52,482 bases of DNA. Origin: Hyphomicrobiales bacterium (GTDB lineage Bacteria; Pseudomonadota; Alphaproteobacteria; Rhizobiales; Xanthobacteraceae). The stretch's first letter is position 1. Every line of letters begins with the position of its first letter. Shown in pieces: positions 3,316 through 10,522 of the stretch. The translations under genes and the position numbers were made by a program. Under the pieces are notes generated by a model, which saw nothing but the letters and a program-made list of their open reading frames with translations, had not been told where the DNA came from and searched no databases. The stretch covers positions 1 to 52,482 of the forward strand of contig JAFAUQ010000101.1 in the NCBI GenBank assembly GCA_019243195.1, in the 5' to 3' direction.

Positions 3316-4701
3316 ATGACTTCCCCATCAGCTGAGTTGAGCTCTTTTCAACGCGAGGTCGTGAGTCGGTTCGGCTTGGTTCCGAATTTCTTTGTCTCCG
3401 CCCCGGACGCACCTGAAATCGTCGAACGTCTGTGGTCCTTTGCCGTCTCGGCCTACTTCGACAATCCCATTCCATCGCTGTTCAAGGAGCGCCTGTTCGT
3501 CTATCTCTCGCGATTTTGCGAAGTACGTTATTGCATCATCCGCCACTGCGCGTTTTTGCTCGGCTACGGCCATTCGGCAGGCGATCCGAAGGCGCCGCTC
3601 CAAACCGTTGAACAGGTCATACGGCTGCTCGCACGGCCGACCCCCTGGGAACGCGGCCCCGACAAGGTTGCCGCCGTCCTGGAACAGTCACCGCCTTGCA
3701 CCGATTGGCCGGAACCCGAAAGCGATCTCGAGGACAAGTTATTCAGCGCCTTGGCGCTTGTATTTGTTGAGGCGCGCCGTTCCGAGCGGGCCGGCAAGGC
3801 GCTGTGCCACGTTCTCGGCGGCAGGCGCTATGAGTACCTGCTCGGGCTGCTGGCGTTCATTCGAACGGCGCACTACTGGACGGTGGTGCATCCGGGATTG
3901 CCGCTCGAAGCGGATGCGGAAGAAATGCTGAAGATCAACGAAGAATTGACGCAACGTTTGCTGCGCGATCCGGAGGCGGCGCGCTGCGACCTGGGGCAAC
4001 GCCTTTTTGCCGAGCTGGAGGAGCTGCGCGGGCTCAGCGAGCGGCGGGAGCTGGAACGCGCCAAGAACGCCCTGGAAGCGGAAGTGGCGCAAAAAGAGCT
4101 TCTGCTTAGAGAGGTCAATCACCGCATCAAGAATAGTTTGCAGATCGTCTCCAGCTTCCTCCACCTGCAACGCGCGCACGTGCAAAACGCCGAAGCAAAT
4201 GCCGCGCTGCAGAGCGCGGGCGCCCGTGTCCACGCAATCGCGGCCGTGCATGAGAGGTTGTACGGCGTAAAGGACATCCGGGTGGTTTCCCTCGGAGAAT
4301 TCCTCGCGAGCCTTTGCGAGAGTATCGGAAACGCCCTGGGACGCGGAGATTCCCTCGAACTCGATCTCGCTTCGGTCGAGGTCCCGACCGACACGGCGAT
4401 TCCCGTGGCTTTGATCGTAAACGAGCTTCTCACCAATGCCCTCAAGTACGGGCGCGCGCCATACCGAACCGTTCTAAAGGCCGCGGAAGGGCGTTTGCTT
4501 TTGACCGTAAGTGACGGTGGCTCCGGTCCGCCGGCGAATGGAACACGGACGGGCCTTGGCTCGCAAATCGTCAAAGCGCTCGCCAGGCAGCTTGGAGCGA
4601 CGCTTGAAACGAAGTGCCGGGCTGGAGGATACGTGGTGGCGCTGACTATACCGCTGAAATCGGCGCCGAACGATGAACCCGGTAATGAAACTCGTCGGTG
4701 A
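3316..4701 (+). CDS. orphan HisKA_2-type histidine kinase with AhpD-like N-terminal domain
   Basis: The 461-residue protein ends in a HisKA_2/HWE-class kinase: phospho-acceptor His269 in REVNHRIKNSLQIV, N box around Asn374 (IVNELLTNALKYG), G boxes at 400-402 and 413-419. Residues 240-265 form a coiled-coil linker. The N-terminal 200 residues resemble the AhpD/carboxymuconolactone decarboxylase fold: FGLVPNFF at 19-26, then Glu58, Cys73 and His77 at the same spacing as the AhpD catalytic Glu, second Cys and His, while the first catalytic Cys is missing (a Cys sits two residues earlier, Cys68). There is no membrane segment, so it should be a cytosolic sensor. No response regulator lies next to it. 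The ATG at 3316 is preferred; an in-frame TTG at 3220 would add an unconvincing extension. Confidence 0.85.
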   Translation: MTSPSAELSSFQREVVSRFGLVPNFFVSAPDAPEIVERLWSFAVSAYFDNPIPSLFKERLFVYLSRFCEVRYCIIRHCAFLLGYGHSAGDPKAPLQTVEQVIRLLARPTPWERGPDKVAAVLEQSPPCTDWPEPESDLEDKLFSALALVFVEARRSERAGKALCHVLGGRRYEYLLGLLAFIRTAHYWTVVHPGLPLEADAEEMLKINEELTQRLLRDPEAARCDLGQRLFAELEELRGLSERRELERAKNALEAEVAQKELLLREVNHRIKNSLQIVSSFLHLQRAHVQNAEANAALQSAGARVHAIAAVHERLYGVKDIRVVSLGEFLASLCESIGNALGRGDSLELDLASVEVPTDTAIPVALIVNELLTNALKYGRAPYRTVLKAAEGRLLLTVSDGGSGPPANGTRTGLGSQIVKALARQLGATLETKCRAGGYVVALTIPLKSAPNDEPGNETRR

Positions 4702-5005: not shown

Positions 5006-5758
5006 ATGCCTGCGACGTCGGAAACGCGCAGCGTGCCCTGCGCCGAGTGCCCGTTCCGATCCTTTCACGAGGTCTTCCGCGACTTCACGCCTGATGAACT
5101 GCAATTCATTTCCGGCTTCAAGGCGGGCGAACTGAAGGTCGAAAGCGGCAACACCTTCCTGCTGCAAGGCACGAACAGCGCTCATCTTTATACGGTCCTG
5201 AACGGATGGGCATTCCGCTACAAAACACTCCCCGACAACCGCCGCCAAATTCTGAATTACGCCTTGCCCGGCGATTTCGTCGGCCTGCAGGGGTCGGTTC
5301 TCAACCAGATGGAACATTCCGTCGAGGCGCTGACCGACATGGTTCTCTGCATTTTTCCGCGCGACAAATTATGGGAACTTCATCGCGGCCATCCCACCCT
5401 CGCCTTTGATCTCACCTGGCTCTCGGCTCGTGAGGAGCAGATCCTCGACGAGAATTTGCTCAGCGTGGGACGACGCACCGCGCTCGAACGCGTGGCCTAT
5501 CTGCTGCTCCACCTCTATACCCGTGCGCAGCAGCTCGGGCTCGGCAAGGGCAACATCATTACTTTCCCGCTCACCCAGCAGCATGTCGCCGATACTCTTG
5601 GAATGTCCCTCGTGCATACCAACAAGACGTTTCAGCGCCTGCGGCGATCGAATGCAGTGCGCTGGAATCGGAACCAACTGGAAGTAACCGACGGGGAGGC
5701 GCTGGCCCGGATCGCCCAACTGGCCGTGCCAGATCGGAACATCCGTCCGTTCATTTGA
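5006..5758 (+). CDS. Crp/Fnr family transcription regulator
   Basis: The protein has an N-terminal cyclic-nucleotide-binding-like beta-barrel (about residues 20-140; GDFVGLQGSVL is the typical loop) and a C-terminal winged helix with the recognition region FPLTQQHVADTLGMSLVHTNKTFQRLR. Cys12 and Cys15 (PCAECPF) near the N-terminus are typical of this Fnr-like group in Bradyrhizobium relatives; whether they bind a cluster is unknown, since the four-Cys pattern of true Fnr is not seen. ATGs at 4979 and 5006 are both possible, and I chose 5006. It stands alone, 160-300 bases from its neighbours, so its targets are not evident. Confidence 0.9.
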   Translation: MPATSETRSVPCAECPFRSFHEVFRDFTPDELQFISGFKAGELKVESGNTFLLQGTNSAHLYTVLNGWAFRYKTLPDNRRQILNYALPGDFVGLQGSVLNQMEHSVEALTDMVLCIFPRDKLWELHRGHPTLAFDLTWLSAREEQILDENLLSVGRRTALERVAYLLLHLYTRAQQLGLGKGNIITFPLTQQHVADTLGMSLVHTNKTFQRLRRSNAVRWNRNQLEVTDGEALARIAQLAVPDRNIRPFI

Positions 5759-8462: not shown

Positions 8463-8849
8463 ATGAATCGCACGATCACAGCCGGCCTTGCCGCGCTGCT
8501 GGCGCTTGGTCCGGGTTGCGGCTTGGCCGGCACGGCGCTCGCCGGCGGTTCAACGCTCGATGAAGACGATCACCACGCTTACTATTTCGGGTCGGTCAAG
8601 GATACGAACGGCGCCGCGGTCGAGAACGCGAAGGTGAAGGTTCAGACCAAGACGATCGCGCTCATGACACAGAGCGACATCACCGGCGCCTACAAGCTTC
8701 CCATACTCGCCTTTCAGACAAATCCCGATGACGTGACCTTCTCCTGCAGCAAGGATGGCTACCGGCAGCTCGACGTCATCCGGCGGAGCGCCCCGGGCGG
8801 CGACGCCAAAGATCCGATCGAGATCGACTGCACGCTCCAGCGCGAATGA
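8463..8849 (+). CDS. exported carboxypeptidase-regulatory-like domain protein
   Basis: The 128-residue product has a signal peptide (MNRTITAGLAALLALG..ALAGG) and one CarboxypepD_reg-type beta-sandwich: YYFGSVKDTNGAAVENAKVKV, then the strand pattern SDITGAYKLPIL. Three Cys remain after the signal (two in the signal region excluded), including CSKDGY and the final CTLQRE, which could form a disulfide. It ends in an ATGA overlap with the next gene, which itself begins with a related domain. Such domains usually mediate binding or assembly in the periplasm. Confidence 0.75.
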   Translation: MNRTITAGLAALLALGPGCGLAGTALAGGSTLDEDDHHAYYFGSVKDTNGAAVENAKVKVQTKTIALMTQSDITGAYKLPILAFQTNPDDVTFSCSKDGYRQLDVIRRSAPGGDAKDPIEIDCTLQRE

Positions 8850-10522
8850 GATCCGTGCGCGCGCAACGGCAAACGAGGGTGCGGGCGCTCCTCGCCGCGT
8901 TTGTCGTGCTTGGCGCTGCGCTGCCGTTCGTTGGCGGCACGGCGGGCGCGCAGGCGCCGACGATCGCCGGCGAGGTGGCTTCGGCGGAAGAAGGCCCGAT
9001 GGAAGGGGTGCTGGTCAGCGTTCAGAAGGCCGGCGCGCCGATCAGCATAACGGTCGTCACCGATGCGAACGGCCGCTTCCGCGTTCCCGGGGCGAAGCTC
9101 TCGCCCGGGTCGTATTCACTGCGCATCCGTGCCGTCGGTTACGATCTCGACGGCCCGCAAACAGTGACCATTCCGTCGCCGGAAGCCGACGACCTTCAGC
9201 TCGGGCTGCGCAAGACCGAGGACCTGGCGGCCCAGCTCACCAATACCGAATGGCTCATGAGCATGCCCGGCACGGCGGAGCAGAAGCGCCCGCTGATCGA
9301 GTGCATGAGCTGCCACACGCTCGAACGGATCGTGCGCTCGAAATTCGACGCCGAGGAATTCGCTGCCGTGCTCCGGCGCATGACCAATTACGCCAACAAC
9401 ACCACCATGGCGCGGGTGCAGCCGCGTATCGCCGAGCGCGAGGTGCCCGAGGAGCGTGTGCGGAAGGTGGCGGCGTATCTTGCGAGCGTCAACCTGAGCG
9501 CCGCGCCGACGTGGTCATATCCGCTCAAGACGCTCCCTCGGCCGAAGGGCCGGGCGACGCGTGTCGTGATCACCGAATACGATTTGCCGCGGCCGGCGAT
9601 CGCGCCGCACGACGTGCGCGCCGATCGTGATGGAATGATCTGGTATTCGAATTTCGTCGAGCCGTTCCTGGGTCGGCTCGATCCGCGCACGGGCGAGCAC
9701 GCCGAATATGCCGTGCCCGTGCTCAAGCCCGGCTTCCCAACCGGAAGTCTCGCCATGGAGCCGGACGAGGACGGCAACTGGTGGCTCGCCCTGATGTTCC
9801 AGGGAGGCTTGGCGAAGTTCGACGTTCGCACCAAGCGCTTCGCGATGTTTCCCGTCCCGCCGGAGATGAACGGCGATACCACGCAACAATCGATGGTCAT
9901 GCCGCGGCGCTCCCATGTCGACGGCAAGGTCTGGACTAACGAAGTAAGCAAACAGGCGATCCTACGACTCGATCTGGCCTCGGGCCGATACGAGAGCTTC
10001 GAACCGTTTGCCGGGTTGGGCGGCGGACGGACGCATTCGCCCTATGGGCTTGCCGCCGACGCGGCGAACGATCTCTATTTCATGGATTTCGGCGATGAAA
10101 GCATCGGGCGCGTTGATGCCAAAACCGGAGCGGTGACGCTCTATCCGACGCCGACGCAAGCTTCGCGGCCGCGCCGCACCATGCTCGATGCGCACGGGCA
10201 TTTATGGTTCGCCGAGTTCGCCGCCAACAAATTGGCGATGTTCGACATCAAGCAGGAGACTTTCAAAGAATGGGACGTGCCGACGCCGCACACTTATCCT
10301 TACGACGTCTTTCTCGACAAGAACAGCGAATTATGGAGCGGATCGATGTCGAACGACCGCATCCTGCGGTTCGACCCGCAGAGCGGCGCGGCGGTCGAAT
10401 ATCTGCTGCCGCGCCAAACCAACATTCGCAGGGTGTTCGTCGACGATACGACCACGCCGGTCACGTTCTGGGCCGGCAACAATCACGGCGCCGCGATCGT
10501 GAAACTGGAGCCGCTGGAGTAG
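8846..10522 (+). CDS. periplasmic CarboxypepD_reg - cytochrome c - Vgb-like beta-propeller protein
   Basis: The 558-residue protein has a signal peptide (residues 1-36, ending AGAQA), a CarboxypepD_reg domain (about 38-125), a c-type haem site CMSCH near residue 153 inside a short helical cytochrome-like segment (to about 215), and then a beta-propeller of the virginiamycin-B-lyase (Vgb/streptogramin lyase-like) family with repeats such as [17 protein letters not shown] and [17 protein letters not shown]. Vgb-like domains in such fusions probably bind a substrate or cofactor and need not act as antibiotic lyases. The haem suggests electron transfer to the coupled membrane proteins. The stop TAG at 10520-10522 comes from the repeat that follows. 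Confidence 0.88.

Follow-up and report, generated by a model that had tools for sequence, protein, structure and literature searches.

A predicted AhpD-fold domain without the CxxC dithiol is the likely input domain of a scattered family of bacterial histidine kinases

The question raised by this locus is what the front half of its histidine kinase does and where it came from. The window, by which we mean the whole 52,482-nucleotide stretch that was analyzed, carries a gene that starts with ATG and encodes 461 residues (Table 1). The kinase part, residues 266 to 448, was readily classified by Pfam, with HisKA_2 at residues 266 to 338 (77.4 bits against a cutoff of 22.3), HATPase_c at residues 363 to 448 (32.8 bits against 26.4), and a weaker HWE_HK match overlapping HisKA_2. 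The H box in the DHp region and the N and G boxes in the HATPase region agree with HisKA_2/HWE membership, and, judged by the motifs NHRIKN with His269, NELLTNALK, DGGSG, and GLG, the kinase looks intact; an earlier note made from the sequence had already recognized a HisKA_2 kinase here. The nearest solved relatives by sequence were blue-light-activated histidine kinases; blue-light-activated histidine kinase 2 (4r39/4r3a) is homologous over residues 261 to 449 (E value, 5e-17), but this match is to the kinase region only, whereas the input domain of the window protein has a predicted AhpD fold. NCBIfam matches also were confined to the kinase half, and the N-terminal 215 or so residues matched no Pfam or NCBIfam model.

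Table 1. Features of the kinase locus, with positions in the window
Feature	Position	Strand	Evidence
Histidine kinase with N-terminal AhpD-fold input domain (predicted), 461 aa	3316..4701	+	Translation; Pfam HisKA_2 and HATPase_c
AhpD-fold input domain (predicted), about residues 8-216	3337..3963	+	AlphaFold2 pLDDT 93.9, pTM 0.91; VIA-align Z 14.1 to 6e8l; hhalign 96.8%
Glu58 codon, on AhpD catalytic Glu	3487..3489	+	54/54 (inside search pattern); 21/23 divergent, profile-found
Cys68 codon, extra Cys at +10	3517..3519	+	45/54; 18/23 divergent
Cys73 codon, on second AhpD Cys	3532..3534	+	50/54; 10/23 divergent
His77 codon, on AhpD catalytic His	3544..3546	+	54/54; 21/23 divergent
His186-x-Trp188, C-terminal helix of domain	3871..3879	+	51 and 53 of 54; 21 and 22 of 23 divergent
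Linker helix into dimerization/phosphoacceptor helix, residues 220-265 of predicted helix 220-287	3973..4110	+	Full-length model, moderate confidence
HisKA_2 domain, phosphoacceptor His269 in NHRIKN	4111..4329	+	Pfam E 9.1e-22; motif
HATPase_c domain, motifs NELLTNALK, DGGSG, GLG	4402..4659	+	Pfam E 1e-7; motifs
Crp-type regulator (cNMP_binding and HTH_Crp_2), directly downstream of kinase	5006..5758	+	Pfam

Residues 1 to 225 were modeled with AlphaFold2 from 54 sequences, which gave an all-helical structure with a mean pLDDT of 93.9 and a pTM of 0.91. In a Foldseek search of the PDB, AhpD/CMD proteins filled ranks 1 to 18 with probabilities of 0.90 to 1.00 and E values of 0.037 to 0.7, which by themselves are not significant even at the best value of 0.037. 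With VIA-align, the top 21 rows were all AhpD-fold entries (Z, 7.5 to 14.1), and the next row, an unrelated protein, reached a Z of 3.3. The best match was Streptococcus pneumoniae AhpD (6e8l; Z of 14.1 over 167 residues at 3.2 Å), peroxidase-related proteins and Bmp8 scored 13 to 13.5, Mycobacterium tuberculosis AhpD scored 7.8, and Sestrin2 gave values from 10.6 to 7.5, with 8.0 also among them. VIA-align warns that helical bundles may score a Z of 13 by chance; the consistent AhpD rows and the fall to 3.3 argue against such a chance match here. On the strength of the model, the N-terminal domain has the AhpD fold and belongs to the AhpD-like fold superfamily. Thus, the structure prediction and the structural search against AhpD/CMD that the earlier note had proposed agreed with the AhpD-like sensor fold that it had suspected.

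Sequence comparison also points to homology with members of the AhpD-like superfamily. A profile of the sensor domain (A3), searched in 398 genomes of the phylum of the window, matched the window protein and six others (E values, 2e-6 to 1e-3); all six carried a correctly placed CxxCxxxH and are canonical AhpD-like enzymes, and in two of them (genomes G793 and G675) a PF02627 match above the cutoff overlapped the A3 match. When the sensor alignment was compared by hhalign with twelve canonical CxxCxxxH enzymes (A5), the probability was 96.8%, and the register put Glu58, Cys73, and His77 on the catalytic Glu, the second Cys, and the His; the first Cys fell opposite residue 70. The spacing of 0, +15, and +19 described in the earlier note was therefore found as placed, and its remark that the first catalytic Cys is missing, with a Cys at +10 instead, was correct: residue 70 (+12) is Val, and Cys68 is present. 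Cys78 also lies at the position given in the note. A G-x-x-P-x-x-F segment near the N terminus is conserved and common to the sensor domain and the AhpD-like enzymes. Five PDB chains were matched at an E value of ≤5, and all of them were AhpD-like, each match being weak (0.22 to 1.5). Additionally, the first 235 residues gave weak matches in 16 genomes of the same family (L038 to L053; E values of about 0.0006 to 0.008); a CxxCxxxH protein lay at the match in all nine of these loci that were searched on both strands, and no AhpD-like protein was seen in the single frame inspected at L038, L042, L047, and L051. Membership of the Pfam CMD family by profile was rejected, since PF02627 had no match in the window protein at the curated cutoff; one of nine homologues matched at an E value of 0.036. 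The pattern E-x14-C-x3-H by itself is weak evidence, as it occurs once in the window protein, in 1.5% of 20,000 shuffles of that protein, and in 3 of the 141 stop-to-stop frames of at least 150 amino acids in the window; the profile and the fold lift it above chance.

The genome of origin aside, 6 of 391 genomes from the same family held strong relatives of the first 235 residues, and one relative with 50% identity was found on a plasmid of Pseudomonas sp. HR96. A scan of a genome collection covering 84,980 species with alignment A2, made with the single pattern [LI]P[AS][LV]FKERL, yielded 57 loci (L056 to L112) in many phyla, among them Acidobacteria, Binataceae, Dyella, Methylobacterium, Bradyrhizobium, Bordetella, Noviherbaspirillum, Nitrospira, Planctomycetes, Cyanobacteria (Nostoc and others), Pelagicoccus, Enhygromyxa, Prauserella, and a Streptosporangiaceae metagenome-assembled genome (MAG). 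The A3 profile took 53 of the 57 loci, leaving out L099 (frameshifted) and L107, L109, and L112 (partial). Used without the pattern, it found divergent members in 9 of 292 genomes of the phylum of the Nostoc locus and in 10 of 297 genomes of the phylum of an acidobacterial locus, the center genome being included in both counts. Its matches in the 398 genomes of the phylum of the window were limited to the window copy and the six enzymes; the domain is thus rare, yet it is scattered widely. The genome of Noviherbaspirillum pedocola (G814, the source of L091) holds two copies of the domain, and in a Rhodospirillum MAG (L099, 6001 to 6219) the frame is broken inside it.

Conservation at the putative active site was read from 54 sensor-domain rows and from 23 divergent rows (Table 1). 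The search pattern itself accounts in part for the invariance of residues 52 to 60, including Glu58, in the 54 rows, while the divergent rows were found by profile and are free of this bias. The earlier note had made its proposal depend on conservation of Cys73 and His77 in close homologues, and both were conserved (50 and 54 of 54 rows, respectively); Arg76 was kept in 53 rows and His192 in 51. At residue 70, the slot of the first AhpD Cys, no Cys occurred in any of the 54 or the 23 rows. The other cysteines were more variable: Cys73 was absent from 4 of 54 and 13 of 23 divergent rows (one of the 13 being a gap), Cys68 was absent from 9 and 5, respectively, 7 rows had only Cys73, and 2 plus 8 had only Cys68. 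At least one Cys was found within residues 64 to 80 in 52 of the 54 rows, the exceptions being L096 and L110, and Cys79 was present in 21 of the 22 divergent rows that have a letter there. A tree was built of 76 domains, without L129, which lacks the active-site segment, and without L121 and L135, which duplicate L094 and L079, respectively. It shows at least 4 changes of Cys68 and at least 7 of Cys73; these counts are rough, with 29 of the 73 inner branches poorly supported. In these alignments, the CxxC pair of AhpD is gone everywhere and the acid-base pair is kept nearly everywhere, with a set of cysteines that differs by branch. The Glu, Cys, and His kept in the window protein would suit a domain that is still an enzyme, a one-Cys AhpD-like peroxidase fused to a kinase by happenstance. 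However, that explanation is very improbable, given that the first-Cys slot is never Cys, that many members do without the remaining Cys, and that a signaling output is fused nearly always. The domain of the window protein is, with high probability, a sensor rather than an active enzyme.

The outputs joined to the domain bear directly on its role. A kinase region was recognizable in 51 of 56 open reading frames, a count that leaves out L109, and the sensor domain was nearly always at the N terminus; the five without a kinase were L064 (at a contig end), L068 (kinase past an in-frame stop), L099 and L107 (broken), and L111. The kinases were of the HisKA, HWE/HisKA_2, and HisKA_3 types. Among 55 proteins (54 relatives and that of the window), Pfam families, which overlap, were HATPase_c in 36, HisKA in 29, HWE_HK in 18, HisKA_2 in 13, and HisKA_3 in 5, with receiver domains in 24, PAS families in up to 31, and GAF in 9. 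The 23 divergent proteins were seen in part, and their counts (PAS in 23, GAF in 15, GGDEF in 10, and HisKA in 5) are lower bounds, as the loci end about 1.5 kb past the match. On the 76-domain tree, with labels taken from H-box patterns and Pfam and 13 rows left unlabeled, the output type changed at least 8 times. The regular presence of a kinase, the several kinase types, the GGDEF fusions among the divergent proteins, and the repeated change of output make it very likely that this is an input domain. The divergent branch (L122 to L145; Cyanobacteria and Acidobacteria) carries a Cys at residue 79 and often has PAS/GAF and GGDEF fusions, and an actinobacterial protein from Prauserella (L083, 5986 to 8517) consists of kinase, receiver, and a C-terminal STAS domain. 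The Pseudomonas sp. HR96 plasmid locus (L055, 7971 to 9362) and L068 (5965 to 8631), which are mutually unrelated members, each have one in-frame TAG between sensor domain and kinase, and in both of them the frame stays open beyond the TAG at this domain junction.

In the window protein, the kinase follows directly on the sensor domain. A full-length model (pLDDT, 78.4; pTM, 0.52) showed one helix at residues 220 to 287, in which the linker runs into the phosphoacceptor helix; the linker and DHp had pLDDT values of 50 to 77 and are of moderate confidence only. The fold, the AhpD-like homology, the residue register, the conservation, and the association with signaling outputs are all computational results. 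The explanation that we consider best, and to which as a whole we give an even chance, is that the first 215 residues descend from an AhpD-like antioxidant enzyme whose CxxC dithiol was lost and that the AhpD-fold domain would now provide cytoplasmic signal input to a HisKA_2/HWE histidine kinase. The remodeled active site, around His77, Glu58, and a nearby Cys (Cys73, with Cys68), would read a chemical signal, most likely as a modification of that thiol by oxidation or by an electrophile, and the change would travel along a helix that leaves the domain and continues into the phosphoacceptor helix, which bears His269. Reading of the signal at the old active site is probable, and the route through the helix is a suggestion of the model.

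Whether the reading is thiol based is a question on which we judge the two answers to be about equally probable. Thiol chemistry is favored by the Cys found within residues 64 to 80 in nearly all of the 54 rows and by Cys79 in the divergent ones. The earlier note had proposed redox sensing through Cys68, Cys73, and Cys78, and conservation was only partly compatible with this: Cys68 and Cys73 are common in the 54 rows, but Cys78 occurred in 2 of 54 and was rejected as part of the sensor for the family, the losses were repeated and separate, and most divergent rows lack Cys73. Since the two cysteines were lost separately, a fixed Cys68-Cys73 disulfide is disfavored as the family mechanism. The observations of the earlier note were confirmed, and its interpretation held as to the AhpD fold, the missing first Cys, and the HisKA_2 connection; the thiol mechanism is plausible and unproven. 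Several nearly invariant potential ligands (His77, His186, and Glu58, with Cys68/Cys73) could alternatively hold a metal or heme, so that the domain would sense a gas or a metal, but this is improbable, for none of the AhpD relatives that the fold search named is known to be a metalloprotein. A more serious competitor, although an unlikely one, is a ligand sensor without thiol chemistry, in which a small molecule would bind in the old pocket of Glu58, His77, His186, and Trp188, leaving the cysteines as relics or as residues that only tune the pocket. These four residues are better conserved across the family than any Cys, and the fold search matched Sestrin2 (Z, 10.6 and 8.0), in which, according to PMC11429811, the AhpD-like SESN-C domain binds leucine. 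However, no ligand is known, and a Cys near His77 or at residue 79 occurs more often than relics would show. The thiol-based reading remains our preferred account of the signal.

Compared with AhpD and the peroxidase-related CMD enzymes (6e8l, 2prr, 2pfx, and 6k40), the window domain has the fold in common over about 167 residues (Z, 13.3 to 14.1), the Glu, the second Cys, and the His in register, and the G-x-x-P-x-x-F segment. In contrast to those enzymes, the family has no CxxC, so that Glu-x11-CxxCxxxH is not formed (residue 70 is Val in the window protein and Cys in none of the aligned rows), an extra Cys at +10, fusion to signaling outputs, and no PF02627 match. The debrominase Bmp8 (6ohi and 6ohj; Z, 13.2 to 13.5) is an AhpD fold with altered chemistry, and it is an enzyme that is not known to be fused to a kinase. 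Sestrin2 (Z, 10.6) is an AhpD fold put to signaling. Sestrin differs in being eukaryotic, in having two fused AhpD-like domains, where the window protein has one followed by a kinase, and in acting on GATOR2; one of its domains has Cys125 as its only catalytic Cys, together with Tyr127 and His132, and SESN-C is the leucine-binding AhpD-like domain (PMC11429811). From the Cys-to-His distance of 7 in these residue numbers, Sestrin would keep the first AhpD Cys, whereas the window family keeps the second. The passages of PMC11429811 on this subject also describe bacterial AhpD-like proteins in which cysteines of one domain were lost, and they mention no form linked to a kinase. Escherichia coli YciW, which PMC11429811 brought to our attention, was set aside as a close relative because the sequences were not alike by eye, and RprR of Ralstonia, judged from a partial source, was not related and was set aside as prior art. 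A search of the PMC literature, with passages of PMC11429811 and PMC12802281 included, turned up no account of bacterial kinases or cyclases that have an AhpD-fold input domain; subscription papers and preprints lie outside this scope. It is moderately likely that the window domain belongs to an as yet unnamed family of bacterial input domains, spread across phyla, that arose when an AhpD antioxidant enzyme was disabled and wired to histidine kinases and diguanylate cyclases, as a bacterial parallel to the change of Sestrin from redox enzyme to stress or metabolite sensor. A sensor domain that occurs in kinases of many phyla but goes unmatched in Pfam thereby gains a fold, a likely ancestry, and testable residues, the turning of an AhpD enzyme into a signal receiver is suggested for bacteria as well as for Sestrins, and one set of point mutants could make the input of many orphan kinases testable across the family.

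The genomic surroundings gave few recurring partners. None of the 60 response-regulator matches in the genome lay on the contig of the kinase (C79, the whole window), in agreement with the earlier note, which had seen no partner response regulator nearby. A single receiver protein, a common neighbor of other HWE-type relatives, adjoined the kinase in at least 11 of the 58 loci examined (receiver queries; E value, 1e-5). A Crp-related gene stood upstream of the kinase in all five Bradyrhizobium loci (phmmer of the flanks), and the Crp-type gene downstream of the window kinase may be functionally linked to it. Among the 25 largest flank clusters listed, no redox gene recurred next to the kinase at different loci, and there was no common partner beyond close relatives apart from the receivers, the Crp genes, and a 12-locus cluster of large open reading frames, which we take to be other signaling proteins. 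Elsewhere in the window, positions 8846 to 10522 encode a Virginiamycin B lyase-like propeller protein with a carboxypeptidase regulatory-like domain.
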